64,000 nucleotides of DNA from Tupaia tana (taxonomy: Eukaryota; Chordata; Mammalia; Scandentia; Tupaiidae), in the NCBI GenBank assembly GCA_026018925.1, contig JAKSZU010000031.1:12880648-12944647 (forward strand), given 5' to 3'. A program made the position numbers and the translations under genes. Positions 11,456-31,200 of the stretch are shown here, in pieces (the stretch's first letter is position 1; each line of letters begins with the position of its first letter). Below the pieces are notes generated by a model. It had not been told where the DNA came from. It did not search any database and saw only the letters and a list, made by a program, of their open reading frames with translations.

Positions 11456-11985
11456 ATCACTGAGATTGATTCTCTCCCATCCGTGGAGCCCAGAAGTCTG
11501 AGATCAAAGTGTGGGTAGAGTCCTACTGTCTCAGGAGGCTGCACAGGAGGGTCCTGGCCTCCTCTCCCAGCTCCCGGGGGAGGCTCCTTCCTCCTCTCCC
11601 AGCTCCCGGGGGAGGCTCCTTCCTCCTCTCCCAGCTCCCAGGGGAGGCTCCTTCCTCCTCTCCCAGCTCCCGGGGGAGGGTCCTTCCTCCTCTCCCAGCT
11701 CCCGGGGGAGGCTCCTTCCTCCTCTCCCAGCTCCCGGGGGAGGCTCCTTCCTCCTCTCCCAGCTCCCGGGGGAGGCTCCTCCGTCCTCTCCCAGCTCCCG
11801 GGGGCTCCAGGCGTCCCTTGTCCTGTGGCCATGTCACTCCAGTCTCTGCCTGTCATCACATAGCTCCTCCACCGTGTCTGTGTCTCCTCTCTGTCTCTTA
11901 TGGGGACATTGGCCACCGCATTTAGGGACCAGCCCGCAATCTAGGATGGTCTCATTCTGAGATTTTTAACCTAATTGTATCTGTA
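11456..11985 (-). mobile_element. MaLR/MLT1-type LTR containing a minisatellite
   Basis: Left flank GTGGAGCCCAGAAGTCTGAGATC and right flank CTCCAGGCGTCCCTTGTCC, GTCTCTGCC, GCATTTAGGGACC, AATCTAGGATGGTCTCATTC follow the antisense order of an MLT1-like LTR. The array 11550-11812 lies between them. Fossil LTR, broken, placental age; no internal retroviral part seen nearby. Confidence 0.75.
11550..11812. repeat. 32-bp minisatellite, locus 1
   Basis: About 8 near-identical 32-base units containing GAGGCTCCTTCCTCCTCTCC, with few substitutions. Near-identity between units points to recent expansion. Confidence 0.95.
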
Positions 11986-11989
11986 AAGA

Positions 11990-12090
11990 CTTTTTTTAAA
12001 GAATTATTTTGTTTAAGTTTATTTATTTTATTTTAATTTGACCAGAGAGGAACACAGAGAGAGAGAGAGAGAGAGAGAAGGCAGGCCTCC
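11990..12090 (-). mobile_element. SINE-B tail fragment
   Basis: AAAGAATTATTTTGTTTAAG, TTTAATTTGACCAGAGAGG, (GA)n; the head is lost. Confidence 0.65.
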
Positions 12091-12470
12091 AGGGTTGTTT
12101 CGGGGGCTCTCCTTCAACAGAGGAGCCCGTGAAGTCGAGCCCTGCTGTAAGAAGCCACACCACCCTCTGCTGCCCGCACGCCGCTGAGTTAATTCGTGGG
12201 AATAAACCCACAGGCGGAAGGGTTCTGTGCCGTGGGATCCTGAGTGTCCATTGACCGTCCGCTGGCCCGTTTCAGGTGGCTCCCAGGCAGCCTGGTCGTC
12301 GTTCACGGACAAGCAGGCGCCCCGATTAATGAAGTCCTCATTTGTTCGCTGTGCAGGGCTAATGAGCGGCCATCAATCTACAGATGCTATCGATGCCGTC
12401 ATCAAGGACGAGGTGTCTGTAGACTCAGGACAGTGGGAAGAAGAGTTCACAGTTTTAAGACATTCTTCTT
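12091..12470. other. Single-copy sequence, possible conserved element
   Basis: Unique-looking DNA. The part 12315-12410 is rich in GATTAAT, GGGCTAATGAG, CCATCAATC and ATCGAT, unlike the flanking repeats. No coding signal. Confidence 0.38.
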
Positions 12471-12522
12471 GCTCTCTCTTTCTTTCTTTCTTTCTTTCTC
12501 TCTCTCTCTTTCTTCTTCTTCT
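12471..12522. repeat. (CTTT)n / CT-rich tract
   Basis: TCTTTCTTTCTTTC followed by TCTCTCTCTTTCTTCTTC, directly before the T-rich end of the next SINE. Confidence 0.85.
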
Positions 12523-12780
12523 TTTTTTAGAGAGGTTTTTGCTATAGGGCGCATGCGCTCACCAGACAGACAGAGAGAGACAGAGAGACAGAAAGTGAGA
12601 AATCACCCCCCAGGGGGGATGGTCACGCCGCAATCCCTTCTCCTCCATTCTCCTCTCGGGATCTTGGGCACGCACGCACGCGCACCCAGCGTGAGTTTAA
12701 GCCACCGGGTGTGGGACTCAAACTGTGGTCGGCTACATGGGAGTGCAGAGACATAGCCATGACGCCAACTGTTGGTTCCC
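12523..12780 (-). mobile_element. SINE-A, well preserved
   Basis: GAGGTTTTTGCTATAGGGCG, CTCCATTCTCCTCTCGGGAT, CACGCGCACCCAGCGTG, CCAACTGTTGGTTCCC. Close to the inferred family consensus. Confidence 0.9.
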
Positions 12781-12787
12781 CCTTTCT

Positions 12788-13003
12788 TTTTTTAAAATAA
12801 TTATTTTATATAGTTTTATTTATTATTGTTGTTATTAGTTTTTACATTGATTATTATTTTTTTTTATTTATTTGTTTTTTACATTTGACTAGAGAGAAAG
12901 ACAGAGAGGAAAAATGAGAAAGCAAGCTGCCAGGTCTGGGACTTGATCCGTGGTTGGCCTTGTGGCAGTCCAGTGCTCTAACCACCACGCCATCTGCCAG
13001 CCC
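12788..13003 (-). mobile_element. SINE-B
   Basis: Long TTATTT-rich tail complement, TTTGACTAGAGAGAAAG, head end CCATCTGCCAGCCC. Confidence 0.85.
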
Positions 13004-13027
13004 TTTTTTCTTATTTTTTTTAAAATT

Positions 13028-13312
13028 TTTTTTTGTGTGTATTTATTTCTTCTTTTGTTTATTTGTTTGTTATAGGGCATGTGCACTTGCCAGGGAGAGA
13101 CAGAGAGAAATAGAGGTACTGCCCCAGGAAGGGATGGCCATGCCACAATGCCTTCTCCTCCATTCTCCTCCTGGGATTTTGGACACGCACACACGCACGC
13201 ATGCATGCACACACACATCTGACATGAATTGCAAGCTGCCGGGTGCGGGACTCGAACCACAGTTGAGCATGTGGAAATCCAGTGCCTTAACCACTACGCC
13301 ACCTGCTGGCCC
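13028..13312 (-). mobile_element. SINE-A
   Basis: TTTGTTATAGGGCATGTGC, CTCCATTCTCCTCCTGGGAT, GGACTCGAACCACAG, CCACCTGCTGGCCCC. Confidence 0.85.
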
Positions 13313-13805
13313 CAGTAGGGGGGACTTCAAATATTGCTTTGCATGCTTCACTGTAGCTCACTTTCTGTTCATCCATGCAGTAGCAGAGAAAGATGTATTT
13401 TTTTCCCTCTTCTTATTTTCAATTTCCAACTGATGCTTCATTTGAAACGATTATCTAGGGAGAAAGGATGTCTTTGCGGAAGACACGTCGGCTGGGAAGA
13501 GTGGGATTCCGGCGTTCGCGTTTCCGGTCCTCGTGAACATGAGCTCTGTGCCTCCCGACAGCGTAGTCTAGACCACGGCTGGGAGTTGGTGAAGCGGGCT
13601 CTTTCGGGCCCTGAATCAGTCGCAGATGGCTCCCTGGGGCCCAGTTTCAGTCTGTAACAAAGAGTTGGGAATATGGGAAGTAAAACCAGCCAGAGAGGCG
13701 AGCGAAGAACCCCGCCGTGTCCTCACTTACCCCTTCCCCGATCGTATGCTGCCGATCCTATTAATCACCTCGCGAGCGATTTCAATACAACGTTGAGATT
13801 TAACC
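13313..13805. other. Single-copy-looking sequence
   Basis: No repeat recognised. CpG-containing, with TATTAATCACCTCGCGAGCG at 13758. No gene recognised. Confidence 0.35.
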
Positions 13806-14080
13806 CTTTATTTTATTATTTTATTTTATATTTGACTTTTAGTTTGCGATGGGGCCATGCACTGGTCAGAGAAGGACAGAGGGAGAGGGAGAGGGAGACT
13901 GAGAAACCACCTCCCGGGGAGGAAGCCATGCCGCAATCTCTTCTTCGTTCTCCTCTGGGGATTTTGGGCACGCACGCACACGGGCACGGTGTATTTTTCA
14001 CGCCGCCGGATTTGGGACTAGAACCACATAGTGGGCCAGGGAAGATGCACCTGCCTAACCACCACACCACTGGCTGGGTC
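13806..14080 (-). mobile_element. SINE-A with SINE-B-like AT tail
   Basis: ATTTTATTATTTTATTTTAT tail complement, then GATGGGGCCATGCACTGG and the SINE-A body; head end CCACTGGCTGGGTC. Confidence 0.78.
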
Positions 14081-14112
14081 TTATGGTTTCTTTAGAATCC
14101 ATGTCTTCTTGG

Positions 14113-14370
14113 GACCAGCAGCTGGCGTAATGGTTACGTTTCTGGTCTCCTACGTGGCTGATTGTGCTTCAAATCCCAGAGCTGGTGGCTTTGAAATCAC
14201 ACCTGGTGCATGTGTGTGCATGTCCCAAGTCCCAAGAGGACAGTGGAGGAGAAGGGACTGCGGCGTGGCCGTGACCCCTGGGATGTGCTTTCGTAGGGTC
14301 CGGCTCACCCTCTCTCTGTCTGTCTGCGTCTCTGGCAACCGCACGTGGCCTGTGGCAACTTAATTTTAAA
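14113..14370 (+). mobile_element. SINE-A
   Basis: GGGACCAGCAGCTGGCGTAA head, body, GGCCTGTGGCAACTTAATTT end. Confidence 0.85.
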
Positions 14371-14439
14371 CAAGTGTCTTCTCTTGGGTCGTCGGGAAAG
14401 TCATGACTTATTTTTGCATAGAAAAATGCAGGATATATA

Positions 14440-14785
14440 TCGTGACTGTGCCTACGTCGCTGGACTCCCATGTAGTCAACCGTGGTTCGAGTCCCAGACT
14501 AGGCGGATTAAAACTCACACTCACAATCTAAATGATGTATAGCGATTTAATGTATGAATAATAATAATAATAAATATATAAATAATAATAATAATAATAA
14601 TAAACTCACACTGGGTGCATGTGCGTGCGTGCCCAAGATCCCAAGAGGAGAGTGGAGGAGGGATTGCAGCATGATCATCCTCTGTGTCTGTCTCTCTCTG
14701 TCTCCCTGCCTCTGTCTCTCTCTGTCTCTCTGTCTCTGGTGAGTGCACACACCTTATAGCAAAAATCTCTTTAAAAAAAAAAACC
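14440..14785 (+). mobile_element. SINE-A interrupted by an AT-rich segment
   Basis: The head ends at AAACTCACACT near 14512; AT-rich sequence with (AAT)n follows; then AAACTCACACT recurs at 14603 and the normal body resumes to TTATAGCAAAAATCTC. The repeated AAACTCACACT brackets the insert like a target duplication. Confidence 0.8.
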
Positions 14786-15220
14786 AAAGAGCTATGTCAT
14801 GACTTCCCGACAACCTACTAAGCTGCTAGTCTGATGGCAGAGCCGGGCGGCCGGTTGGCAGCTGTTGGGGCGAGTCCGACACAGAGCTGCAGCGTGCTTT
14901 GCTTCGCCTGGTCCGTGCACAAGCCCGAGCGTGACGTAAACCACGAATGACTGGAAGACGGTGACTGCATGGCCAAATGCCACCTCTGGGGCCGCCGGGG
15001 CATGCCGGGTTCCCAGGGAGGAGGCCGCGGCCCATACGCGTGTCAGCTGGTGCGTTGATCTAGTGGCTGTTTTTATGCAGGGACCTGGGAGAGGGGCCAG
15101 GCTGTCCCCAAAGGCCAACGGGCTGGCCAGATGGGCTTGCCAGGCCCCGCCAGACACGTGGTCACTCTCCAGCTCGGACGCTACAAATAGAACAATCCCA
15201 GGGCGGCCGGGAAGGACCAG
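14786..15220. other. Single-copy, CpG-containing sequence
   Basis: No repeat recognised. Includes AGCGTGACGTAAACC (CRE-like TGACGT) at 14928. No gene recognised. Confidence 0.35.
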
Positions 15221-15233
15221 GTGACGTGCCCCG

Positions 15234-15480
15234 GCAGAGGTGAATGAGGGACGGTGGGGTGACGTGGCCCTGCAGAGGTGAATGAGGGATGGTGGGGTGA
15301 TGTGGCCCGGCAGAGGTGAATGAGGGACGGTGGGGTGACGTGGCCCTGCAGAGGTGAATGAGGGATGGTGGGTGACGTGGCCCTGCAGAGGTGAATGAGG
15401 GTGGTGGGTGACGTGGCCCGGCAGAGGTGAATGAGGGTGGTGGGGTGACGTGGCCCGGCAGAGGTGAATGAGGGATGCTG
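15234..15480. repeat. 36-38 bp minisatellite, 7 units
   Basis: GCAGAGGTGAATGAGGG recurs at intervals of 38, 38, 38, 37, 36 and 37 bases. Most units also hold GGTGACGTGG, a CREB/ATF-type core. Confidence 0.95.
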
Positions 15481-15481
15481 G

Positions 15482-15870
15482 GGATGGCTGACACACGGCA
15501 GGACAGCGAGGTCAGGGCTGTGACCGGCAGGGCCAGGAAGCTCCTGGTTAGGAGTCAGGGATCTGAGCGTGACATTCGTTCTCTGGGTCTGCGGCCTGCA
15601 AAGAACCGTCTGTGCTCACAGGCCCATCAGTGCGCAGCTTCACGCAAGAGGACGAGACGTGCCCCCGACATCCACACACACGTTCCCCAAGGACCGACCC
15701 GCACTCTCAGGGCTCCTCAGGCTGTGGGAACGCGAGGGGTGCCCCGCTGCCCAAACAGCGCCCAGTCAGCATGGGGGCACCTGGTTCTGTGCGAACATGG
15801 GGCTCTGCTGAGAGCCCGTTGTATACGAGCGCATCCTGAATTATCTGGGCCCTAAATGCAATGACCACAT
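15482..15870. other. Single-copy-looking sequence before locus-2 array
   Basis: No gene or repeat recognised. GGGCCCTAAATGCAATGACC near 15849 could be a scrap of LTR-type text (GGGCCC, AAATCCAATGAC), but I am not sure. Confidence 0.3.
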
Positions 15871-15879
15871 GGTCCTCCC

Positions 15880-18275
15880 TCCTCTCCCAGCTCCCAGCTC
15901 CCGGGGGAGGCTGCTTCCTCCTCTCCCAGCTCCTAGGGGAGGCTCCTTCCTCCTCTCCCAGCTCCCAGGGGAGGCTCCTTCCTCCTCTCCCAGCTCCCAG
16001 GGGAGGCTCCTTCCTCCTCTCCCAGCTCCCGGGGGAGGCTCCTTCCTCCTCTCCCAGCTCCCAGGGCCCCAGGGGAGGCTCCTTCCTCCTCTCCCAGCTC
16101 CTAGGGGAGGCTCCTTCCTCCTCTCCCAGCTCCCGGGGCCCAGGAGAGGCTCCTTCCTCCTCTCCCAGCTCCCGGGGGAGGCTCCTTCCTCCTCTCCCAG
16201 CTCCCAGCTCCCGGGGGAGGCTCCTTCCTCCTCTCCCAGCTCCCGGGGCCCAGGGGAGGCTCCTTCCTCCTCTCCCAGCTCCCGGGGCCCAGGGGAGGCT
16301 CCTTCCTCCTCTCCCAGCTCCCAGAGGAGGCTCCTTCCTCCTCTCCCAGCTCCCGGGGGAGGCTCCTTCCTCCTCTCCCAGCTCCCGGGGGAGGCTCCTT
16401 CCTCCTCTCCCAGCTCCCGGGACCCCAGGGGAGGCTCCTTCCTCCTCTCCCAGCTCCCGGGGCCCCAGGGGAGGCTCCTTCCTCCTCTCCCAGCTCCCAG
16501 GGGAGGCTCCTTCCTCCTCTCCCAGCTCCCAGGGGAGGCTCCTTTCTCCTCTCCCAGCTCCCGGGACCCCAGGGGAGGCTCCTTCCTCCTCTCCCAGCTC
16601 CCAGGGGAGGCTCCTTCCTCCTCTCCCAGCTCCCAGGACCCCAGGGGAGGCTCCTTCCTCCTCTCCCAGCTCCCAGGGGAGGCTCCTTTCTCCTCTCCCA
16701 GCTCCCGGGACCCCAGGGGAGGCTCCTTCCTCCTCTCCCAGCTCCCAGGGGAGGCTCCTTCCTCCTCTCCCAGCTCCCAGGACCCCAGGGGAGGCTCCTT
16801 CCTCCTCTCCCAGCTCCCGGGGGAGGCTCCTTCCTCCTCTCCCAGCTCCCGGGGGAGGCTCCTTCCTCCTCTCCCAGCTCCCGGGACCCCAGGGGAGGCT
16901 CCTTCCTCCTCTCCCAGCTCCCGGGGCCCCAGGGGAGGCTCCTTCCTCCTCTCCCAGCTCCCAGGGGAGGCTCCTTTCTCCTCTCCCAGCTCCCGGGACC
17001 CCAGGGGAGGCTCCTCCCTCCTCTCCCAGCTCCCGGGGGAGGCTCCTTCCTCCTCTCCCAGCTCCCAGGGGAGGCTCCTTCCTCCTCTCCCAGCTCCCGG
17101 GGGAGGCTCCTTCCTCCTCTCCCAGCTCCCGGGGGAGGCTCCTTCCTCCTCTCCCAGCTCCCGGGGGAGGCTCCTTCCTCCTGTCCCAGCTCCCAGGGGA
17201 GGCTCCTTCCTCCTCTCCCAGCTCCCAGGGGAGGCTCCTTTCTCCTCTCCCAGCTCCCGGGACCCCAGGGGAGGCTCCTTCCTCCTCTCCCAGCTCCCAG
17301 GGGAGGCTCCTTCCTCCTCTCCCAGCTCCCGGGACCCCAGGGGAGGCTCCTTCCTCCTCTCCCAGCTCCCAGGGGAGGCTCCTTCCTCCTCTCCCAGCTC
17401 CCGGGGGAGGCTCCTTCCTCCTCTCCCAGCTCCCGGGACCCCAGGGGAGGCTCCTTCCTCCTCTCCCAGCTCCCGGGGCCCCAGGGGAGGCTCCTTCCTC
17501 CTCTCCCAGCTCCCAGGGGAGGCTCCTTCCTCCTCTCCCAGCTCCCGGGACCCCAGGGGAGGCTCCTTCCTCCTCTCCCAGCTCCCGGGGCCCCAGGGGA
17601 GGCTCCTTCCTCCTCTCCCAGCTCCCAGGGGAGGCTCCTTCCTCCTCTCCCAGCTCCCGGGACCCCAGGGGAGGCTCCTTCCTCCTCTCCCAGCTCCCGG
17701 GGCCCCAGGGGAGGCTCCTTCCTCCTCTCCCAGCTCCCAGGGGAGGCTCCTTCCTCCTCTCCCAGCTCCCGGGGCCCCAGGGGAGGCTCCTTCCTCCTCT
17801 CCCAGCTCCCAGGGGAGGCTCCTTTCTCCTCTCCCAGCTCCCGGGACCCCAGGGGAGGCTCCTCCCTCCTCTCCCAGCTCCCGGGGGAGGCTCCTTCCTC
17901 CTCTCCCAGCTCCCGGGGCCCCAGGGGAGGCTCCTTCCTCCTCTCCCAGCTCCCGGGGGAGGCTCCTTCCTCCTCTCCCAGCTCCCAGGACCCCAGGGGA
18001 GGCTCCTTCCTCCTCTCCCAGCTCCCAGGGGAGGCTCCTTCCTCCTCTCCCAGCTCCCGGGGGAGGCTCCTTCCTCCTCTCCCAGCTCCCGGGGGAGGCT
18101 CCTTCCTCCTCTCCCAGCTCCCAGGGGAGGCTCCTTCCTCCTCTCCCAGCTCCCGGGACCCCAGGGGAGGCTCCTCCCTCCTCTCCCAGCTCCCAGGGGA
18201 GGCTCCTTCCTCCTCTCCCAGCTCCCGGGACCCCAGGGGAGGCTCCTCCCTCCTCTCCCAGCTCCTTGGGGCTCC
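15880..18275. repeat. 32/40-bp minisatellite, locus 2
   Basis: About 65-70 units of GAGGCTCCTTCCTCCTCTCC. A 32-base type alternates irregularly with a 39-41-base type carrying an extra GGACCCCAG or GGGCCCCAG. Neither strand has stop triplets, so frames of 750-890 residues appear in several frames; these are not genes. One strand is pyrimidine-rich. Confidence 0.97.
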
Positions 18276-18500
18276 AGGCGTCCCTTGGCTTGTGGCCGCA
18301 TCACCCCAGTCTCTGCCTCTGTCTTCACGTGGCCATCTCCCCATCAGTGTACCTCATGTCCCTCTGCCTCCCTCTTACAAGGACCTATCTGCTGGCGTTC
18401 AGGTCCCACTTACGTGGCCCAAGACAATCCTCTCTGTCTCAACCTCCTTACATTAATCCTCTCTGCCAAGTCCCCTTTCGTGAATAAGTTCCTGATCACT
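18276..18500 (-). mobile_element. MaLR/MLT1-type LTR, part beyond locus-2 array
   Basis: CTCCAGGCGTCCCTTGGCTTG, CATCACCCCAGTCTCTGCC, TCTTCACGTGGCC, TCTTACAAGGACC, CAAGTCCC are in antisense LTR order, the same place in the LTR as at loci 1 and 3. Fossil, broken. Confidence 0.75.
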
Positions 18501-18534
18501 GCTTATAGGGCTTCGAATGGGCATATATATCTTT

Positions 18535-18713
18535 TCTAAAAATAATTATTTATTTAATTTTACTTATCATTATTATTTCATTTGCTTTAGGGCATGTGCA
18601 CTCACCAGAGAAAGACAGAGAAACTGAGAAATCAAGCCACCAGGTCCGGGACTTGAACTATGGTTAGCCATGTGGGAGTCTAGCCCCCCAACACCATGCC
18701 ACCTGCTGGCCCT
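18535..18713 (-). mobile_element. SINE-B with SINE-A-like 3' end
   Basis: AATAATTATTTATTTAATTT, GCTTTAGGGCATGTGCACTC, GGACTTGAAC, CCACCTGCTGGCCC. Confidence 0.85.
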
Positions 18714-18734
18714 ACCTTTCTCTTTTTTAATTTT

Positions 18735-19300
18735 TAATGCATTATCTATATATACACACACATTTAATCAGTGTACATCTGTAAGGGGCACAAAATGTTT
18801 TCTTCACCCATGAACAATATTTATTAGCACACTCAAAGATAATACCATAAACAGCTCCATCAGCAGATAGCTTTTCCTTTTTGTATCTTTTAAATGTTTT
18901 CTCCCGATCCCTGCCTCACACCCCTTATTTCCCACCCATTTCTTTACTGTCTCTAATATCCGCAGTTGCCCCCCTGCTGTTCCACCTTCCAGTTTTTTTT
19001 CTCTTTCATAGCCTGGCTTGCTTCACTCAGTAGTCAACCTTCCAACTCCGTCCACTTCCTATCCCATGCCAGGGTCCTGCCGTTTTCATGGCTGAGTAGT
19101 ATTCCAAGTGTATATGTGCCACATTTTTCCAACCCAAATGTTCTTGGACATTTGGGTTGGTTCCATGTCGTAGCAATGGTGAGAATGCTGCAGCAAATGT
19201 GGGTGTGCAAGCGCTTTTCCGACTGAGCGTTCTCCTAGCCCTTGGGTAGATACCCAGGAGTGGGATTGCTGGGTCATACGAGGTTAGGTTGTGTGCTGAC
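18735..19300 (-). mobile_element. L1 3' end (ORF2 C-terminus and 3' UTR)
   Basis: The minus strand encodes YDPAIPLLGIYP near 19270-19230, then NPNVQEHLGWKN and HLEYYSAMK, the well-known C-terminal text of L1 ORF2, followed by an AT-rich 3' UTR. About 570 bases, heavily 5' truncated and non-coding. Confidence 0.9.
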
Positions 19301-19302
19301 TG

Positions 19303-19549
19303 GGGACAGCAGGTGGTATGGTGATGACGGCAGCTGGATCCCACCTGCCCAACTGTGTGGTTCGAGTCCTGGACTCGGTGTCTTGAAACTCACACCTGGC
19401 GTGTGTGCGTGCATGACCAAGATCCCGAGAGAAGAACAGAGGAGAAGAGATTGCGGCATGGCCATCCCCCCTGGAGGGTGATTTCTCACTTTCCCTGTCT
19501 CTCTTTCCCCAGCAAGTGCACACACCCTATAGCAAAAACAACAAACAGA
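19303..19549 (+). mobile_element. SINE-A
   Basis: GGGGACAGCAGGTGGTATGG head immediately after the L1 end, GGTTCGAGTCCTGG, CCCTATAGCAAAAACAAC. Confidence 0.85.
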
Positions 19550-20160
19550 AGACGCATGTGGGTCCAAACTGTTAAACCCTGTTTCCTATTTCTTCCCTAC
19601 CCCTGTGTGGAGACTGAAGGGCTTGGCATGATCTGTTTGATTGGAATTCCAGCAAACACGAGGTCCCTAGTCCCTGCCTGTGGTCATCCCGCCAATGAGT
19701 CATCTGGCCAGCTACTTTGGAGAGCTAACTGGGACACTGTCCCTCCTCACACATGTCTGCTGCTTTCACCGGCCCCCCATGCCTGACCCACTTCTGCAGG
19801 GTCCTTTCCGCTCTGGGCCTCTCTGGTGAGCTCTTCACATTCTGTGGCCTCTTCTCAGCTGTGCGGTCCGTCGTCCTGGCTCTTTTTTCTCCCCCACCTC
19901 TTGGGGACATCCCCGGCCTTCCCAGGAATCTTCTGGCTGGTTTCTCCAGGCAAGGCGTCACCGCGCTAAGCAATGCAAACTGGAATTGGCCGTGGGCATC
20001 TGTCCTCGCTGAGCCCTAGTGAATGGCCGTGTCATGTTAAGAACCTTCTAGATTTTAGCATTGTCCATACTTTAAGATCTTTTGTGATCAATAAAATGTG
20101 AAAAAGAAAATGAGTATAGAAGGGAGAGAAGAGAAAGGAGAAGGAAGAAAATGGACAAAA
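19550..20160. other. Single-copy-looking sequence
   Basis: No gene or repeat recognised. Ends in an A/G-rich run (20098-20160). Confidence 0.35.
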
Positions 20161-20173
20161 GTATGTTTAATTG

Positions 20174-20428: not shown

Positions 20429-20616
20429 GTATGTTTAATTGACCAAAAATGGGAAGCTATTTGCTGATGATAATGTATATAGTCATATCCTTGTCTTGAT
20501 AGACTTGCATGGTTTTTGTGTTGGAAAAGGAAATGTGTACTGTAAAGACATGTGATAAGATGTAAATTAAAATAAATAAATTTAAACAAAGAAAAGAAAA
20601 GAAAAAGAACCTTCTG

Positions 20617-22140: not shown

Positions 22141-22142
22141 TA

Positions 22143-22370: not shown

Positions 22371-22375
22371 ATGTT

Positions 22376-22569: not shown

Positions 22570-22655
22570 CCACAGCTGGTGAAACGAATGTGCCCAGCAT
22601 GGCTACACTGCACTGCAGTCCAGCTCCTTAACTGCTATGCCACCTGCCGACCCTG
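22570..22655 (-). mobile_element. SINE head fragment, weak
   Basis: CCAGCTCCTTAACTGCTATG and CCACCTGCCGACCC resemble the head end only. Confidence 0.4.
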
Positions 22656-22984
22656 CCATAGGGACTTTAAAACCATGGTGTCCCGTCCTGTGTCAGCCAG
22701 ACGGTAGCTATGGAACGGCTCCGAGACCTGTCACGTGGGCAGCCCCATGTTTGCGACAGGGCCATGCCCGGAGAGTGCCCAAGTACGTCTTCACGCTGAG
22801 GGGACAGGAGCGTTGACACAAGTGGCCGTTGGAAGTGACCGCAGCACGCCTGCCACAGAGCTCTCTGGGCGACGATGATCCGATTTAGCACAGCAGCAAA
22901 CGCGTACGGACCCCAGGCTCAACGGCGGACAGGGCACCCTGACCTGGTTGTCGGCGCAGCTGGCCCTGAACGGGAAAGGCGTGG
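22656..22984. other. Single-copy-looking sequence
   Basis: CpG-containing; no gene or repeat recognised. Confidence 0.3.
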
Positions 22985-23088
22985 AGGTCCCTCTCTCCTC
23001 AGGAGGACCCCTGTCTCTCTCTGTCTCTGTGTCTCTCTGGCCAGTGCATGTGCCCTATAGCAAAAATCTCTCTCTCCAAAAAAAAAGG
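22985..23088 (+). mobile_element. SINE-A 3' fragment
   Basis: CT-rich stretch, GGCCAGTGCATGTGCCCTAT, AGCAAAAATCTCTCTC and poly(A). Confidence 0.75.
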
Positions 23089-23559
23089 GAAGCCAGTGTA
23101 TGCAGGTGCCAGGCCTGCAGGGCCTCGCTAACCAACTTCTTTTGGAAGTTGCAATGTAAAACCACACACGACATCAAACCTACACTAATTGGGAGCCTGT
23201 GACATGCTGGGCGGGTCCGAAGCTTACTTTTAGCCCAGGCCCGTGGGAGGAGGAGGTAAATAATATCCCGGAAGGACCACCTCCTCCCTTAGAGAAGGAA
23301 TCTGTCGAAATCTTTGCAGAAGCCCTCGTTTCTACAGCAACAGGAACCTGGAAGGGTGACGGGCGGGTGCTCTGGGGCCTCTGCTACTTCTCTTGGCATC
23401 GATCCGTGCTGTTGCATTTTGATTTTATTTTCTAGAACACTCTCGACGGTCATGAAACTAGGAGGAACCTGTCGTCTGAACATGGCGCACATTTAGACAG
23501 AGTTTTTTCTTTGTCACGTTTATTTTTATAAAGCGAAGAAGTACAGATTTAAACAAATG
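23089..23559. other. Single-copy-looking sequence
   Basis: No gene or repeat recognised. Confidence 0.35.
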
Positions 23560-23850
23560 TTTTCAGCAAGAGAACTTGACTTTTTTTTTGCTTTTTGGTC
23601 TTTTACATGTTTCTTCCGTTTGCCCACCGCACCCACCGTCTCCCCCCACGCCTCTCCCGTGCAGTCCTGGCATTCTAGAGTCACCCTCTCTACCGTCACG
23701 GCTTCAGATCTTTCCATTTCGGCCAGAGTGCAGAGGGACATGGCCAGTGGGGATATACAGTGTCTGTCTAGCGCAGAGGGACAGAGCCAGTGGGGATATA
23801 CAGTATTTGTCTTTTAGAGTCTGGCTTTCACTGTGTTATTTTTCTTTCTT
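23560..23850 (-). mobile_element. L1 3' UTR fragment with a short tandem duplication
   Basis: Parallels the 3' UTR part of the L1 at 41486: a GTCTCC-rich stretch, GGGATATACAGT, TTAGAGTCTGGCTTTCACT. A segment of about 44 bases (GCAGAGGGACA through GGGGATATACAGT) occurs twice at 23731-23810. Confidence 0.6.
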
Positions 23851-23855
23851 TCTTT

Positions 23856-24038
23856 CTTAGACTTATTTTTTATTTAACTTCATTTGTTTACGTAATAATT
23901 TATCTTAACTTGACCAGAGAGGGACGTAGTGATGTGGGATGGGGGGAGTGAGAAAGCAACATTCCAGGTCAGGGGCTCGAACCACGCTTTGCCATGTGGG
24001 AGTCCAGCACCCTTAACCACCATGCCACTTGCTCGCTC
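23856..24038 (-). mobile_element. SINE-B
   Basis: TTATTTTTTATTTAACTTC, AACTTGACCAGAGAGGG, GGGCTCGAACC, CCACTTGCTCGCTCC. Confidence 0.82.
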
Positions 24039-24067
24039 CTTTGTGACTTTTTAAACATGATTCTTAT

Positions 24068-24321
24068 GGGAACAGCAGATGATGGAGTGGTTACGTTACT
24101 AGACTTTCACCCGGGAGACTGTAGTTCGAGTCCCAGACCCAGCAGATTGAAACTCACTCTGGGCACATGTGTGTGTGTGCCCAAAACTCTGAGACAACAG
24201 TGGATGAGAAGAGATTGTGATGTGGCCGTCCGCCCCGGGGAGGGGTTGTGATTTCTCTCTTTCTGTCTCTCTCTGTCTCTTTCTGGCAAGTGCGTGAACC
24301 CTATAGCAAAAATTGCTCTTA
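24068..24321 (+). mobile_element. SINE-A
   Basis: GGGAACAGCAGATGATGG head, AGTTCGAGTCCCAG, CCCTATAGCAAAAATTGC. Confidence 0.85.
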
Positions 24322-24337
24322 ACAATGTGTATTTCTG

Positions 24338-24620
24338 GGGCCAACAGATGGCGTAATGGCTATGTTGCAGAACTCCCACGTAGTTAACTGCGGTTCAAGT
24401 CCCAGACCTGGTGGCTTAAACTCACGCCGGGCGCATGTACATGCGTGCCCAAGATCCCGAGAGGAGGATGGAGGAGAAGGGATTGCGGCGTGGCCATACC
24501 CCCTGGGGGGTGATTTCTCGCTTTCTGTCTCTGTCTCTCTCTGTCTTTCTGGCAAGCACAGATGCCCTATAGCAAAAAAGCCAACAAACAAACAAAAAAA
24601 ACCTCTCCAAAAAAAAAAGT
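24338..24620 (+). mobile_element. SINE-A, well preserved, two A-rich tails
   Basis: GGGGCCAACAGATGGCGTAA; the tail has GCAAAAAAGCCAACAAAC then CCTCTCCAAAAAAAAAAG, suggesting growth inside the tail. Confidence 0.9.
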
Positions 24621-24639
24621 GCATTAACTTTTTTCTTCC

Positions 24640-24800
24640 ATGAGTAAAAGGAGCGAGAAACGGAAAAACGCAGAGAGAGACATGGAGACAGAGATATGTA
24701 GAAACAGCATCTCCATAGGATCTTGAACTTCGACAGCCCCCAGTCCCATCCCCGGATTATGGGCACACGCGTGCCTGGCGTGTCAGGGAGGTCTGCGGAC
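24640..24800 (-). mobile_element. Older SINE-like element (third type)
   Basis: GCAGAGAGAGACATGGAGAC, GTGCCTGGCGTGTCAGGGAG, GACGTGAACCGGGGACCTC parallel 3596-3760. Strongly diverged. Confidence 0.4.
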
Positions 24801-25413
24801 GTGAACCGGGGACCTCGGCACGTGGCCATGCTTCATGGGGTCGTGTTTTCCCGCCGTGCCAGCGTCTGGCTCCTGTCCTGTGAACGACCCGCCGGGCGAC
24901 CGTCGCGAGGTCTCTGCCGTCGCTGGCGGGTGTTCCTCTTTCCTGGTGCCTCACGCATGTTCGAGGGTGATGACGACGGGATGGCGGGCATTCCTGAGCC
25001 GATGGCACCGGGTTCCAGAAGGCGCTTCCGTGGTTGTGCAGGGGAGGGGCGGGCAGGGAAGGTCCGTGTAGGGGAGAGGCGGGGGGAGGCTGCCGTCCTG
25101 ACCCCCTCCTTCTTCCTCCCTCCTTCCCGTCTTCCTCCCCTCCTCACATCCCCCTCCTTTCCCTCCTTCTTTACAGACACCCCAGAGACAGAGGCGAGCA
25201 CCGTTGGGGGGACCCACACGCTGCCCCCACCTTGTGTTCCTGGCCAGCGTGGGTCGAGGGTGCACAGCGGGTGTTCGAGCTCGGTCATCCGCGTGATCCA
25301 GTCTCGCTCGGGCCGGCCGTGGGCCCTGCATCACCAAGCCGGCCTGTCTCAGTTCTTGTTTTCCTCACTGACACGTGAGCCTTATGCATACTGATGAAGA
25401 CAGTGGACTGTTT
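24801..25413. other. CpG-rich intragenic patch
   Basis: Dense CpG from about 24770 to 25340, with GC-box-like GGGGAGGGGCGGGC at 25041 and GAGAGGCGGGGGGAGG at 25073, then a pyrimidine-rich run. No start exon recognised. Possible CpG island or alternative promoter, or simply GC-rich subtelomeric DNA. Confidence 0.4.
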
Positions 25414-25677
25414 TTTCTAAGAGATATTTTGCTACAGGGCGTTCATTCGTCAGAGAGACAGAGAGGGACAGAGAGATAGAAAGCAAGAAATTAACCCCCC
25501 CCCCCCCAGGGGAGATGGCACACTGCCATCCCTTCTCCTCCATTCTCCTGTTGTGATTTTGGGCACACACGCACACGCGCCCGGCGTGAGTTCCAAACCA
25601 TTGAGTCAGGGACTCGAACCACAGTCTGCCGTGTGGGAGTCCAGCGCCATAACCATTGCACCATCTGCTGCTCCCCC
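25414..25677 (-). mobile_element. SINE-A
   Basis: AAGAGATATTTTGCTACAGG, a C run at 25496, GGACTCGAACCACAG, CCATCTGCTGCTCC. Confidence 0.85.
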
Positions 25678-25779
25678 CATGGAGTAGCTTCTTTGGATCT
25701 GATTTGTTTTGTTTGACTTTGGGTCATGGTATTATTCCTCCACGTGCCTTGAACCAGAGGACCTAGAGGCAGAATAAAT

Positions 25780-25943
25780 ATGTGAGAGCACTTCTAAGAG
25801 TTTATGAGAAGAAAGAAAGAAGAAACAGAGAGAAAGACAAAAAAAGAAGAAAGAAAAAAGAAAATAAAGAGAAAGACAAAAAGAAAGAAGAAAGAAAGAG
25901 AAAGACAGAAAGAAGAAAGAAAAAGACAGACAGACAGACAGAC

Positions 25944-25992
<49 letters not shown>

Positions 25993-26069
25993 AAGACAAA
26001 GGAAGACAGAAAGAAGAAGATGGAAGGAAGGAAGGAAGGAAGGAAGGAAGGAAGGAAGGAAGGAAGGAA

Positions 26070-26127
<58 letters not shown>

Positions 26128-26270
26128 AGGAGGAAAGAAAGAAAGAAGGAAGAAAAAGACAAAGAAAGAAGAAAGAAAGGAAGACAGAAGAAATAAAGAG
26201 AAAGAAAGAAGAAAAAAGAGAAAGAAAGAAGAAAGAAAGAGAGAAAGAGGAAGGAAGGAAGGAAATGGGA
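25780..26270. repeat. Polypurine tract, (GAAA)n / (GGAA)n
   Basis: About 490 bases almost wholly A/G on the + strand, with pure blocks of (GAAA)n at 25945-25975, (GGAA)n at 26020-26070 and (GAAA)n at 26073-26126. Several parts are mirror-symmetric. Confidence 0.95.
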
Positions 26271-26493
26271 ATAAAGTATGCATCTGTTTCTGTGCTAGAG
26301 AATTCTGAAATTCATGCGTAGTTATTTCATAACACACACGTGAATTATGGCTCTCACGTGCATCCAAAACTGCTTCCGTGTCTGCCTCCTCTTCCTCCAA
26401 AACCTCAGCTCTTCCGAAGCACCAGCCACGTTTCTGTCTCCCTGCTCTTATAAAGTTATCCCTGGGCATTCACTCTGTAAAAGTGTCTCCTCG

Positions 26494-26747
26494 GGAGCCA
26501 GCAGGTAGCATGGTCCTTAAGGTGATGGATCCCACATCACCAACTCCGTGGTTCGAGTCCTGGAGCTGAGGACTGGAAAATCACACTGAGTACATATGCA
26601 CGCATGCCCAAAATCCCAGGGGGAGAACGGAGAAGGGACTGTGGCATGGCCGTCTCCCACCCAGTGGTAGATTTCTCATTTCCCCTCTCTGTCTCTGGCG
26701 AATGTATGCACCCTATGGCAAAAAATCTATTAAAAAAGAAAAAAAGC
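26494..26747 (+). mobile_element. SINE-A
   Basis: GCCAGCAGGTAGCATGGTCC head, GGTTCGAGTCCTGG, CCCTATGGCAAAAAATC. Confidence 0.85.
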
Positions 26748-26805
26748 GTTCCCTTCTAATATTCTACTGAAAAAGAAGGAAGTCCTCGTTTCTGAGTCAT
26801 GGGAT

Positions 26806-27058
26806 GTATTAGTTAGGGATGCTGCGTAACAAAATAACCATGGACTTTGCAGCTTCCAACAGCTCCTGTTTGCACTCACAGTCTCTGTGCAGCGGGGGTC
26901 TGGGTATGGTGCGGCTGAGTTCTCGCCTGAGCTTTTCAGTGAGCTCAAACCAGAGTTGCCGTCTCCGAGTTCCTTTCTGCAGCTCACAATCCTCTTTTGA
27001 GCTCACGAAGTTGTTGGCAAAATTCAATTCCGTGAGGTTTGCCAACTTCTAAATAACA
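26806..27058 (-). mobile_element. LTR fragment, MaLR-like
   Basis: GTATTAGTTAGGGATGCTGC, AACAAAATAACCATGGAC, CAGTCTCTGTGCAGCGGGG, GTTGTTGGCAAAATTCA are in the antisense order of an old MLT1-subgroup LTR end. Partial, placental age; family assignment moderate. Confidence 0.55.
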
Positions 27059-27387
27059 GAGAGAAAGACTCTCTAAAAAAAGCGTTTCTTCCGAAATAGC
27101 CATTCCGAGGCAGACGGTGCTTGCTGTAGCAGGTGACAGCCGTAGACTCAGGGAGGTACGGGACGGGGTGGCGCCTGCCCGAGGCTGGACAGACCGCGTC
27201 TGGGCCGGTGTGCTCGTACAAGTCCTTGTGTCAGGGTTCAGTTGCCTTTGTACAACCTTACGGTCCTGGCAGAGTTCTCGAGCCAGTTCTGCCGGGCATG
27301 TTTGCACGAGAACCACCCCTCCGTCGCCTTCCCTGGGTCGCGCCACAGTGTGACATAACCCACTCCGTCAGTTTTTATTTCTATTTG
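27059..27387. other. Single-copy-looking sequence
   Basis: CpG-containing; no gene or repeat recognised. Confidence 0.3.
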
Positions 27388-27604
27388 TTTAGGTGTTTGC
27401 CATAGGGCACGTGTGCTCACTGGAGAGAGACAGAGAGATAGAGACAGAGAGAAAGTGAGACATCACCCCCCAGAGGGATGGTCGCTTCACAGTCTCTCTG
27501 TCTCCATTTTTCCTGGGATCTCGGGCACGCACGCACACACACCTGGCGTGATTTTTAAGCGGTTGGGTCCAGGACTCGAATCATGGTTGATGACGTGGGA
27601 CCCC
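27388..27604 (-). mobile_element. SINE-A, head joined to an inverted copy
   Basis: TGTTTGCCATAGGGCACGTG to GATGACGTGGGACCCC. It runs without a gap into a + strand SINE-A body, so the two form an imperfect inverted repeat. Confidence 0.8.
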
Positions 27605-27742
27605 AGAGTCCCGAGGGGAGAATGGAGGAGAAGAGATTGCGGCGTGGCCGTCTCCCCTGGAGGGAGATTCTTGCTTTTTGTCTCTCTTTTTCTCTGGCAA
27701 GCGCATGCACCCTGTAGGGAAAATCTCTCTTTTTTAAAAAAG
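27605..27742 (+). mobile_element. SINE-A 3' half
   Basis: Begins GAGTCCCGAGGGGAGAATGG, ends CCCTGTAGGGAAAATCTC. Confidence 0.8.
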
Positions 27743-27745
27743 GGA

Positions 27746-28132
27746 ATTATCTATTTAATTTTATTCATTATTATTATTGTTATTATTTTTTAAATATTTT
27801 TGCTATAGGATGCGTGTGCTCGCTGGAGAGACAGAGACAGAGAGACAGAGAGTGAGGAATCACCCCCCAGGGGAGATGGACAGAGTGAAGCCCTTTCTCT
27901 GTTGTCCTCTTGGGATTTGGGGCACATACTCACACAGAGAAAGTGAGAAATCACCCCCACCCCAGGGATGGCTGTGCCATAATCCCTTCTCCCTTCTCCT
28001 CCTGATTTCTCACGCGCACACACACACACACGTGTGCCCAGTGTGCATTTCAAACTCCCGGGTCCGAGATTTGAACCACAGCCAGCCATGTGGGAGTCCA
28101 GCAATGTAAGTGCTAGGCCATCTGCTGGACCC
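27746..28132 (-). mobile_element. SINE-A with internally duplicated body
   Basis: AGTGAGGAATCACCCCCCAG at 27852 and AGTGAGAAATCACCCCCACC at 27944: the body start occurs twice, so this copy is about 120 bases longer than usual. Head end CCATCTGCTGGACCC. Confidence 0.8.
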
Positions 28133-28191
28133 GTAAATCAATTTTTCTCACTTAACACCTGTCTTCTAGGTGGGATGCAAGTTTTCCTGGA

Positions 28192-28378
28192 GGTTGGCAG
28201 GTGGCATGGTGGTTGGGGCACTGGACTCCCACCTGGCCAACCGGGGTTTGAATCCCGGACCAGGCAGCTTGCTTTCTCACTTTCCCTTCCTGTCTCTCTC
28301 TGCCTCTCTTTGGGCAAATTAAAAAATAAATAATAATAACAAATGAAATGAAATAAATAAATAATTCTTAAAAAAAAG
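28192..28378 (+). mobile_element. SINE-B
   Basis: GGTTGGCAGGTGGCATGGTG head, GCAGCTTGCTTTCTCACTTT, GGCAAATTAAAAAATAAATA. Confidence 0.87.
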
Positions 28379-28426
28379 AAAGAAAGAAAGAAAACACGTT
28401 TTCCTGTTTGGAATTATCCTAGCCAT

Positions 28427-28600
28427 GGGGCTGGCAGGTGACACGCTGGTTAAGGGCACTGGATTCCCATATGGCTGACCGTGGTTCAAGTCCTGGACCT
28501 GGTGGCTTTGATTTCTCACTTTCCCTTTCTCTCTCTGTCTCTCTGTGGTCTAAAATAAATAAATAACAAATGGAAGTACATAAATAATCTTTGAAAAGGA
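28427..28600 (+). mobile_element. SINE-B
   Basis: GGGGCTGGCAGGTGACACGC head, GGTTCAAGTCCTGG, AAAATAAATAAATAAC. Ends about 65 bases before a DHRSX exon. Confidence 0.87.
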
Positions 28601-28665
28601 AAAGTGAATTCTGTTACCCTGTGTGGTAGTGTAGGAGCTGACCTGCCGGCTCGTTCTCCTCGCAG

Positions 28666-28767
28666 TGGAGTTTTTGTACTGTGACCTGGCGTCCATGACA
28701 TCCATCCGGCAGTTTGTCCAGAGCTTCAAGAGGAAGAAGCTCCCTCTCCACGTCTTGGTCAATAATG
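28666..28767 (+). CDS. DHRSX: DHRSX internal coding exon (SDR DLxS region to NNAG)
   Basis: DHRSX is a short-chain dehydrogenase/reductase of the ER/secretory system. Recent work assigns it the polyprenol-to-polyprenal and dolichal-to-dolichol steps of dolichol synthesis; earlier work linked it to starvation-induced autophagy. This 102-base exon follows acceptor TCCTCGCAG and precedes donor GTGAGT. It enters in phase 2 (last two bases of a Val codon) and reads EFLYCDLASMTSIRQFVQ, then a Lys/Arg-rich stretch and PLHVLVNN; the first base of the next Ala codon lies before the donor. It carries the SDR YCDLAS stretch (adenine-side Asp) and the start of NNAG. Apart from conservative changes it matches human DHRSX as I remember it. 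The upstream exons with TGxxxGxG were not found in bases 1-28600. Confidence 0.93.
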
Positions 28768-28899
28768 GTGAGTGCTGGTGACACTGCTCCGAGCGCGAGG
28801 TTGATGCCACGCAGACATGAACCCCGACGTTCCCGCAAGAGCCGTGCTTCAGCAGAGCACAGTTCCCAGGGAAACTCATGACTCTGTGCCCTGAACAGA

Positions 28900-29169
28900 C
28901 CACGGGCCGTGAGGGGGTGTGGTGGTTCAGGCGGCCGGATCCCACGTGGCTGGCTGCATGGTTCGAGTCCCTGACCCGCTGGCTTGAAAAACACACCGGG
29001 CATGTGGAAATGCATGCCCAATATCCTGAAAGGAGGGAGAAATGGAGGAGAAGGGAGTGTGCTGTGGTCATCCCCACGTGGAGGGTTGCTTTCTCACTTT
29101 CTGTCCCTCTCTCTGTCTCTGTCTCCTCTGGCAAGTGCACATGCCCTATAGCAAAATTTTAAAAAAAAG
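28900..29169 (+). mobile_element. SINE-A
   Basis: GGGGGTGTGGTGGTTCAGGC head, GGTTCGAGTCCCTG, CCCTATAGCAAAATTTTAAA. In the intron after the first DHRSX exon of the window. Confidence 0.83.
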
Positions 29170-29271
29170 GTATGCTATTTTTTCCTGCTGCTTCATTTTA
29201 ATACTGTGTTTGGCTTTTGTTACGAGCAAAATCCATTTTATTTTGTATTAGCTGTTTAAGATTTCTGCCAT

Positions 29272-29366
29272 GGGGCCAGTGAATGGTGTAGTGCTTACAT
29301 GACTGGACTCCGGCATGACTGACTGCAGTTTGCGTCCTGGACACGGTGCCTTGAAAATTGCACTGG

Positions 29367-29397
<31 letters not shown>

Positions 29398-29548
29398 CTA
29401 AAAATCCCAGGAGGAGAATAGAGGAGAAGGGACTGCAGCATGGCCATCTCCTCCAGGGTCATTTCTCACTTTCCCTCTCTCTGTCTCTGTCTGTCTCGTT
29501 CTCTGGCGAGCACACGTGTCCTAAGGCAAAAACCTCTTTAAAAAAAAT
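29272..29548 (+). mobile_element. SINE-A with (GT)n
   Basis: GGGGCCAGTGAATGGTGTAG head; GTGTGTGTG tract at 29372-29398 in the body; tail CTAAGGCAAAAACCTC. It stands tail-to-tail with the next copy. Confidence 0.88.
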
Positions 29549-29549
29549 A

Positions 29550-29791
29550 TTGCGCCTTATGGCATGGGCACGTGTACTTGCCAGAGAGAGACAGACAGAG
29601 ATAGAGAAAGAGAGAAATCACCTCCAGGGGGATGGCCACACCACAATCCCTTCTCCTCCATTCTCCTCTCGGGATCTTGGGCACGCACGCACATGCGCCC
29701 AGCGTGAGTTTAAGCCACCGGGTCCAGGACTGGAACAGTGGTTGGCTACATGGGAGTCCAGCGACATAGCCATTGCGCCAACGGCTGGTCC
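29550..29791 (-). mobile_element. SINE-A
   Basis: ATTGCGCCTTATGGCATGGG to CCAACGGCTGGTCC; well preserved. Forms an inverted pair with 29272-29548. Confidence 0.9.
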
Positions 29792-30041
29792 TACTACCCC
29801 AAGTTTTCAACCTCTTCATCACATTTCGACACCACAGTTGGGAACACGCCCAGACGTGGCAGGAATTCCTTTCGGTGGGTTTGGAATATCTGTGCTTTTC
29901 TGTGTGTGTCACCACGCTGTCACTGGTGGTCCTCTCCCAAGTGTGACGTCCAGGAGAACACAGAGGCGGAGTCCGCCTGCCCCGGGGCCCGCTCCTCCGT
30001 CCTCGCTAACCTGCCTCGGCCTCGGATGCTCTTCTCCCCAG

Positions 30042-30249
30042 CGGGCGTGATGATGGTGCCTCAGAGAAAAACCGAGGATGGCTTCGAAGAGCACTTCGGC
30101 TTGAACTACCTGGGACACTTCCTGCTGACCAACCTTCTCCTGGACACGCTGAAGGAATCGGGGGCCCCAGGCCACAGCGCGAGGGTGGTCACCGTCTCCT
30201 CGGCCACCCACTATGTCGGCGAGCTGGACATGGACGACCTTCAGAGCAG
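30042..30249 (+). CDS. DHRSX: DHRSX internal coding exon (catalytic Asn and Ser)
   Basis: A 208-base exon between acceptor TTCTCCCCAG and donor GTGGGG. It opens by completing the Ala codon of NNAG and reads [18 protein letters not shown], then [39 protein letters not shown] and ends DMDDLQS plus two bases. It contains the Asn of the SDR catalytic tetrad (LNYLGHF) and the catalytic Ser in VTVSSA. No stop, and the phase agrees with both neighbouring exons. The donor GTGGGG is weaker than GTRAGT. An MLT1-type LTR begins only about 20 bases after the donor. Confidence 0.95.
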
Positions 30250-30269
30250 GTGGGGAAAGAGCGGCGTAT

Positions 30270-30540
30270 GGCCGGGTCAGCCCAGGCTCTGCCTGCGTCT
30301 CGGCGTGGCCCGCGCCTCTGTGTCTGTGTCCCCTCTGCTGTCTCCCGCGGGGACCCTGGTCATTTCTTGTTGAGGGCTACCTACTCCAGGAGCCTCGTGT
30401 CAACACCCTACCCTTAATAATGTCTGCAAAGACCCTGTTTCTAAGGAAGACCCCATTCTCAGGTTCTAGTGTTGTTAGGACCTGCATATGGCTTTGGGGG
30501 ATCCCCATTCAACCCATTTGACTCATGTCGAGTTCCTGTG
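30270..30540 (-). mobile_element. MaLR/MLT1-type LTR, first of two
   Basis: CAGGCTCTGCCTGCGTCTCG, CCTCTGTGTCTGTGTCCCC, GACCCTGGTCATTTC, ATGTCTGCAAAGACCCTGTT, CTCAGGTTCTAGTG, TTCAACCCA: middle to outer end of an antisense LTR, without the minisatellite part. Fossil, broken, directly after the DHRSX exon. Confidence 0.75.
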
Positions 30541-30965
30541 GATGCTCCAGGAGAGGCTCCTCCTCCTCTCCCAGCTCCCAGGGCCCAGGGGAGGCTCCTT
30601 CCTCCTCTCCCAGCTCCCAGGGCCCCAGGGGAGGCTCCTTCCTCCTCTCCCAGCTCCCAGGGCCCCAGGGGAGGCTCCTTCCTCCTCTCCCAGCTCCCAG
30701 GGCCCAGGGGAGGCTCCTTCCTCCTCTCCCAGCTCCCAGGGCCCAGGGGAGGCTCCTTCCTCCTCTCCCAGCTCCCGGGGGAGGCTCCTTCCTCCTCTCC
30801 CAGCTCCCAGGGGAGGCTCCTTCCTCCTCTCCCAGCTCCCGGGGCCCCTGGGGAGGCTCCTTCCTCCTCTCCCAGCTCCCAGGGCCCCAGGGGAGGCTCC
30901 TTCCTCCTCTCCCAGCTCCCAGGGCCCAGGGGAGGCTCCTTCCTCCTCTCCCAGCTCCTGGGGCT
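30541..30965. repeat. 32/40-bp minisatellite, locus 3
   Basis: About 11 units of GAGGCTCCTTCCTCCTCTCC. Most are the 39-41-base type with GGGCCCAG or GGGCCCCAG; three are the 32-base type. It sits in a DHRSX intron. Confidence 0.96.
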
Positions 30966-31200
30966 CCAAACATCCCTTGGCGTGTGGCTGCGTCACTCCC
31001 GTCTCTGCCTCTGTCTTCACATGGCTCCTCCTCTGTGTCTGCGTCTCCTTCTTTGTCTCTCACGGGGGCCCTGCTCATGACGTTCAGGGTCCCCCTACCC
31101 TAGGAAGAGCCCATTCTAACCTGATGCCTTATGCAGAAATCCCATTTCCAAATGATGTCCTCTCCCCAGGTCCCAGGGTTTAGGGCTCCCCCCGTCTTTT
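30966..31200 (-). mobile_element. MaLR/MLT1-type LTR, second of two
   Basis: CTCCAAACATCCCTTGGCG, TGGCTGCGTCACTCCCGTC, CTGCCTCTGTCTTCACATGG, then a diverged outer end. The array 30541-30965 replaces its expected internal segment. It lies in line with the preceding LTR piece. Confidence 0.72.

Follow-up and report, generated by a model that had tools for sequence, protein, structure and literature searches.

The 64,000-nucleotide stretch of Tupaia tana DNA analysed here (the window; C442:12880648-12944647, on a contig of 14,120,996 bases in a genome of 2.95 Gb) holds three minisatellite arrays, A, B and C, whose unit is a segment of the long terminal repeat (LTR) that flanks them, so that the arrays are LTR-derived. 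They belong to a minisatellite family confined to one chromosome end of pseudoautosomal-region (PAR) type; in all comparisons below, PAR denotes the C442 end, a designation taken from its gene neighbourhood. In the reading that we favour, with a probability of roughly 0.6, the members of this LTR-derived family are kept alike by exchange between loci.

Distribution of the arrays and their LTR source

Array A (11546..11804, + strand) consists of 8 units, nearly all of 32 bp, and is recovered by Tandem Repeats Finder (TRF) with a 32-bp period and 8.1 copies. Array B (15880..18271, + strand) comprises about 67-68 units of 32, 39 and 40 bp; TRF places it at 15891-18229 with a 32-bp period (66.5 copies) and also a 72-bp period, and its ends were widened by reading the units. 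The 11 units of array C (30547..30963, + strand; TRF 30547-30958, period 40, 10.8 copies) are mostly of 39 or 40 bp. The commonest units are GAGGCTCCTTCCTCCTCTCCCAGCTCCC(G/A)GGG, with the 39- and 40-bp forms additionally present in B and C; the 32-bp form ends in CCCGGGG or CCCAGGG, and the longer forms carry an additional GCCC(C)AGGG-type piece. All three arrays have a GC content of 71-72%, against 52% for the whole window. An earlier note on this DNA had proposed that the three arrays have a common unit and that on the right each runs into an antisense LTR at one common point. TRF and unit reading agree on the former, and the latter is confirmed by matches to an LTR right-half profile that begin at the array edge of A (11805..11990, + strand, from profile position 3, E 1.4e-32), B (18272..18510, + strand, profile 1-237, E 8.2e-26) and C (30964..31200, + strand, profile 1-257, E 1.6e-29). 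The left flanks differ: array A adjoins the matching left half of its antisense host LTR (11456..11545, + strand, left profile 107-181, E 1.4e-11), array C directly follows a second, head-to-tail copy of the LTR right part (30263..30520, + strand, profile 2-261, E 8.3e-23), and array B follows a possible inverted LTR fragment with approximate bounds and a weak match (15822..15865, - strand, E 0.0062). The LTR is presumably of the MLT1/MaLR type.

The 20-mer given for the unit in the earlier note occurs at 826 places in the genome (427 forward, 399 reverse), and all of those among the matches listed lie on C442; 539 of them could be assigned individually to 29 clusters at 11.93-13.90 Mb, leaving 287 unplaced. 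Since the same 20-mer read backward has 0 genome places, the sharing of the unit is not due to chance, an explanation excluded likewise by backward-read controls of 0 for the two further probes. These probes, an array/LTR junction pattern allowing up to 3 mismatches and a 25-mer unit variant from the 40-bp unit, find 21 of 21 places (11.93-13.77 Mb, both strands) and 48 of 48 places (12.458-13.896 Mb), respectively, on C442; across the whole genome neither has a match at autosome ends or anywhere else outside C442. Among readable loci, 29 have at least 3 units and 28 at least 5, with 15 in forward and 14 in reverse orientation, a median of 19 units, a largest array of 68 and a span of 1.93 Mb. 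Six further unit-bearing places, at 13.178, 13.385, 13.388, 13.474, 13.883 and 13.896 Mb, are known from 25-mer matches and are not readable. The family thus occupies the last 2.2 Mb of the 14.1-Mb contig. Two neighbouring minisatellites of the window serve as controls, and each is a single-locus repeat: a minisatellite of 38-bp units, lying 0.4 kb to the left of array B (15220-15483), has 7 genome matches, all in the window, and an exact 36-mer from an 89-bp-unit minisatellite (50287-57939; 7.6 kb, 86.5 copies) has 4, again all in the window.

The LTR family is genome-wide, whereas the arrays are not. With a query from an LTR copy on contig C975 (L048), the search returns 1,386 first-look candidates, and 38 of the 40 scored lie outside C442; with a query from the flank of array C, 24 of 40 are on C442, including the top 18. 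All 30 copies outside C442 that retain both LTR halves are unexpanded, with 22-84 bp between the halves, which corresponds to one copy of the segment; 4 of these 30 lie on contig C1197. They come from 36 LTR loci inspected for expansion, the remaining six of which lack one half (including L094, on C442). Proper left and right halves are present at 7 PAR loci, 6 of which hold 8-39 units and one of which, 13040331, holds a single unit. In an alignment, the array unit matches the single-copy segment of LTR copies that have not expanded, both inside and outside the region. Short direct repeats close to GGCTCCAGG stand on either side of this segment, with a spacing of about 41 bp in L017, an unexpanded PAR copy, and weaker versions of these repeats occur in LTR copies elsewhere.

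The common array edge extends to the whole family. Using LTR half profiles built from 26 copies outside the region, we scanned 32 PAR loci and found that the right profile starts at position 1-3 in 29, abutting the last unit in 26 and lying 46-77 bp further on in three. The proposal that the same LTR segment and a coinciding array edge recur is supported in these loci, and the LTR profile matches exclude flanks from unrelated elements, an outcome that the earlier note had named as contrary to its proposal. On the left side, a left half is recognised at 7 loci (one of them unexpanded), a head-to-tail right-half copy at 3, the weak inverted piece at 1 (array B) and nothing at 21; a query from a PAR copy adds three left halves, at 11933880, 13223991 and 13453275. 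At C442:12243868-12245358 (L044, L015 and L026), three to four LTR right parts stand head-to-tail, and between them lie an 11-unit array, a single near-perfect unit and a decayed unit. At C442:12560935-12561928 (L062), 30 standard units have no recognisable LTR on either side.

Units compared with their flanks

The 32-bp units differ by 2.7% within arrays and by 3.3% between them (28 arrays, the single locus 13499812/13500340 being counted as two here and merged in the profile scan), and the array consensus sequences are alike save for one A/G site. For the flanks, we compared 31 PAR copies with 34 other copies in steps of distance from the array. Mean identities for PAR-PAR, PAR-other and other-other pairs are 0.845/0.510/0.478 at 1-15 bp, 0.898/0.708/0.617 at 16-30 bp, 0.713/0.659/0.708 at 31-45 bp, 0.778/0.745/0.745 at 46-60 bp, 0.735/0.569/0.551 at 61-75 bp and 0.625/0.516/0.452 at 76-90 bp. 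Likeness is therefore extreme in the array, high for the next 30 bp, at the level of unrelated copies at 31-60 bp and again in smaller excess beyond. Locus 12457928 has non-PAR-type letters in its near flank, yet it holds 39 standard units. Because units are nearly as alike between as within arrays and the flanks look unrelated at 31-60 bp, units have been shared or homogenised between loci; the suggestion that the flanks have diverged far more than the units is borne out by the same figures. Sharing extends to rarer unit variants, 20 of 141 of which occur at two or more loci, and a variant with a 7-bp insert recurs at 6 loci. Such sharing is genuine, although new variants are mostly local: the other 121 are private to one locus.

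That one segment expanded at many LTR copies independently of each other, the units being alike through a like start and GC drift, is very improbable. Such growth could draw on the seed of short direct repeats around one segment, which copies elsewhere also have, and on a strong drift of the flanks: 11 majority changes separate PAR from non-PAR flanks over the first 75 bp, and 10 of them run from AT to GC. It would have to reconcile units that agree to 97% with flanks that differ by 20-30%, and an expansion of 0 of the 30 copies elsewhere. Moreover, the A/T letters retained are the same in all arrays, as are small deletions seen by comparison with several non-PAR copies, and at many loci the length forms of 32, 39 and 40 bp share their breakpoints. 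Independent growth alone thus does not fit the pattern of units and flanks. Between the two possibilities raised earlier, repeated expansion and the passing of units between loci, passing or a single source fits better, given the near-single unit alphabet and the common small deletions, and repeated independent growth loses ground.

The drift itself is seen in substitution rates: in PAR flanks, changes from A/T to G/C amount to 25% and the reverse to 7%, compared with 14% and 18% elsewhere. This shift is the expected effect of GC-biased conversion and agrees with the strong GC bias described for PAR1 in humans and apes (PMC4102438, PMC9575207). Owing to this bias, flank trees lean toward grouping the PAR copies, and the IQ-TREE flank tree has to be read accordingly. 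On it the PAR label changes 3 times, against 21 in shuffles; a test of a single PAR clade does not reject it (p-AU 0.37); and good support is limited to 1 of the 59 inner branches. The underlying alignment dropped 13706677 (a double of 13706751), L066 (a double of L048), L094 (in the region) and L080 (no match), and array 12560935 and single anchor matches without a junction have no alignable flank; the tree additionally left out 12745105, L073 and L091 as odd rows.

Since one clade is not rejected, a minor but appreciable share of probability goes to a different history, in which one PAR LTR copy grew an array once, the array spread within the PAR together with 80-180 bp of LTR by old local duplication or templated insertion, and exchange then kept the arrays alike, the LTR copies being for the most part not independent insertions. 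The grouping of PAR flanks in the tree is in keeping with such a spread, as are several pairs that are 93-96% alike over 85-137 bp beside the array before likeness stops, the absence from many PAR flanks of the T that stands at position 57 in most non-PAR copies, the head-to-tail LTR pieces at 12.244 Mb and the array without recognised LTR at 12560935. However, PAR GC drift can mimic relatedness, the tree is weak, a first tree places the loci 12457928, 12896528 (array B) and 13040331 outside the group, and seven loci have a proper left LTR half in place. The earlier statement that the arrays arose in separate LTR copies has partial backing, as most regional flanks group in the weak tree and a single clade is not rejected. 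Among the array pairs listed from an all-against-all comparison, spread of a ready-made array by one segmental duplication does not account for the set. More than 1 kb of common flank is found in one of these pairs, 13288952 (L023) and 13306680 (L018), which are 96.5% identical over 1,199 bp and represent one plain segmental duplication; other array pairs have short stretches in common.

Beside the clade that is not rejected, several observations weigh against exchange between loci as the explanation. PAR-PAR flank identity rises above that of non-PAR copies again at 61-90 bp (0.735 and 0.625 versus 0.55 and 0.45), GC-biased conversion alone can make flanks converge, and the predominance of private variants means that exchange is slow or old. 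By profile, the left LTR half is recognised at just 7 of 32 loci, and the right profile starts at position 13 in one locus and is missing from two. As the PAR loci were found partly via array-based queries, the array-bearing share of PAR LTR copies is biased, so that array shares in the PAR and elsewhere are no fair frequency comparison, whereas the confinement of junction and unit is. Finally, PAR status derives from gene neighbourhood and not from X-Y sharing, and the domain PF16360 of GTPBP6, a distal PAR gene, was not matched, a result that is uninformative for an exon-split protein.

As a plausible mechanism for the exchange between loci that we favour, an old LTR would contain one internal segment of about 40 bp, enclosed by short direct repeats, from which each array grew or into which it was copied. 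Judging from the anatomy, slippage or unequal exchange between the short repeats (approximately GGCTCCAGG) may have produced a 40-bp unit in the first duplication, and loss of 8 bp from it the 32-bp unit; duplication between short direct repeats is accepted as the way in which minisatellites begin (Haber and Louis 1998, after PMC6947457). The arrays would then be maintained by non-allelic exchange (template switching or gene conversion) among LTR copies that lie in both orientations across about 1.9 Mb; it would transfer units between loci, together with about 30 bp of the right flank, while the remaining LTR ages. A common alphabet and a common first 30 bp next to an unshared remainder indicate such copying between loci. 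PARs undergo extreme recombination, and because the seed exists outside the PAR with no expansion seen there, we take PAR recombination as the probable driver and the reason why expansion would occur in this region but not in LTR copies elsewhere. Observed are the confinement, the common right edge, the like units beside diverged flanks and the AT-to-GC shift of the flanks; the direction of transfer, the role of meiotic breaks and any function are what we infer beyond this pattern. No growth polarity is seen in the arrays, odd units making up 39, 30 and 36% by thirds.

Gene neighbourhood and a PRDM9-type gene

The window contains a short-chain dehydrogenase exon (30044..30250, + strand), with a best PDB match of 8.9e-12 and 0 Pfam families matched, and an open stretch with a further dehydrogenase exon (36641..36955, + strand; adh_short 22.8 bits, below the cut-off of 26.6), which we take to belong to DHRSX. 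Elsewhere on C442, a CD99-family exon lies at 12.69 Mb, with a second, stronger family match on C1197, and the main amelogenin match lies at 3.57 Mb, with a weak second match on C1197. In humans, amelogenin, CD99 and DHRSX follow in this order toward the Xp tip, and CD99 and DHRSX lie within PAR1. From this set of genes on C442 we infer that its end is PAR-type sequence at the Xp tip of an X-type arm. The first array stands at 11.93 Mb and the CD99-family exon at 12.69 Mb; the arrays at 11.93-12.56 Mb, beyond the CD99-type exon, may or may not therefore be within the PAR of this species. Long tandem repeats are unusually abundant in the window; others are minisatellites with 68/136-bp units (59914-60648) and with 112-bp units (63503-63983), and about 7 copies of GGTTAG, a telomere-type hexamer, stand at 1518-1558, within the chromosome arm.

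The units might also be kept alike by a protein that reads them, either as a meiotic cis-element like the mouse mo-2 minisatellite or as clustered PRDM9 sites, a doubtful proposal that would be compatible with exchange. Confinement to a PAR-type end and a GC-rich 32-bp unit resemble the 31-bp mo-2 (PMC11039559, PMC11168930), and the genome holds a PRDM9-type gene (C242:9496476-9503288), with an SSXRD exon at 9496476 and 15 zinc fingers from 9501975, 5.5 kb on. A crude zinc-finger code predicts that fingers 2-8 match the unit core at 10 of its 11 set bases. An equally good fit is obtained for 4 of 200 units with shuffled letters, for 2 of 300 fragments of the window, for 1 of 150 GC-rich fragments and for 0 of 26 segments from LTR copies elsewhere. 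Shuffles of finger order, however, do equally well in 54 of 400 cases with 7 fingers, 131 of 400 with the full motif and 85 of 400 with 5 fingers, so that the fit is not significant against that control. The predicted link of PRDM9 to the array unit is thus suggestive and unproven. Folding scores of the unit (z -0.46, -0.42 and +0.82) support neither a hairpin nor other special folding; nor do they suggest that the unit is specially prone to hairpin-driven instability, and they count against its being read by a protein. A second PRDM9-type locus, at C242:5169611-5175407, likewise has an SSXRD exon and CRECGRGF fingers.

Relation to known minisatellites and significance

Minisatellites born in LTRs and minisatellites of PARs are both known kinds; new here is an LTR-derived family of some thirty loci confined to a PAR-type end. 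The mouse minisatellites Ms6-hm and Hm-2 lie in MaLR LTRs (Kelly 1994, via PMC9659126 and PMC6947457) and likewise represent growth inside an LTR, with parallel origin at two loci, whereas here some thirty loci share one chromosome end and one unit alphabet. A human minisatellite at 16q24.1 (FOXF1) has 33-bp units flanked by MLT1D ERVL-MaLR pieces (PMC4411736), and is similar in unit length and setting but is a single autosomal locus that, judging by its unit, derives from another part of the LTR. Mouse mo-2 is a PAR minisatellite that gathers the break machinery and is also present at the ends of chromosomes 4, 9 and 13, and it is tied to RMMAI clusters (REC114-MEI4-MEI1-ANKRD31-IHO1) and DNA double-strand breaks (PMC11039559, PMC11168930). 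The Tupaia family has a GC-rich unit of similar size (about 31-32 bp) and a similar concentration, in a region that is PAR-type by its genes; it differs in having no match outside C442, in contrast to the presence of mo-2 at some autosome ends. In human PAR1, minisatellite-like PRDM9 peaks with unit lengths of 4-101 bases are described (PMC4102438). They too combine tandem repeats carrying many PRDM9-type motifs, a PAR and strong GC bias; they differ in their varied unit lengths, and the account available describes no single LTR-derived family. STIR, the human subtelomeric interspersed repeats, are likewise a dispersed repeat of the PAR, and also of subtelomeres, with minisatellites; a literature search yielded no paper bearing on this comparison. 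The literature searched, mostly without subscription papers, yielded no description of such a PAR-confined LTR-derived family, and none that links DHRSX, a minisatellite and the pseudoautosomal region.

A further, speculative step, for which we hold out limited expectation, is that an LTR fragment became a PAR-specific recombination element independently of mo-2: the arrays would attract meiotic breaks, perhaps via PRDM9, and be copied into other LTR copies at repair, so that they spread and are kept alike, and would aid X-Y crossover. Among PAR minisatellites, the literature searched assigns a demonstrated role in the formation of XY breaks to mo-2 alone, and whether this is a mouse oddity is an open question. 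A second, unrelated PAR-confined family, with an LTR source, unexpanded relatives and many loci, is a natural experiment on the birth of minisatellites from an LTR, and it makes testable whether PARs generally evolve such arrays and whether meiotic break repair itself spreads and homogenises them.

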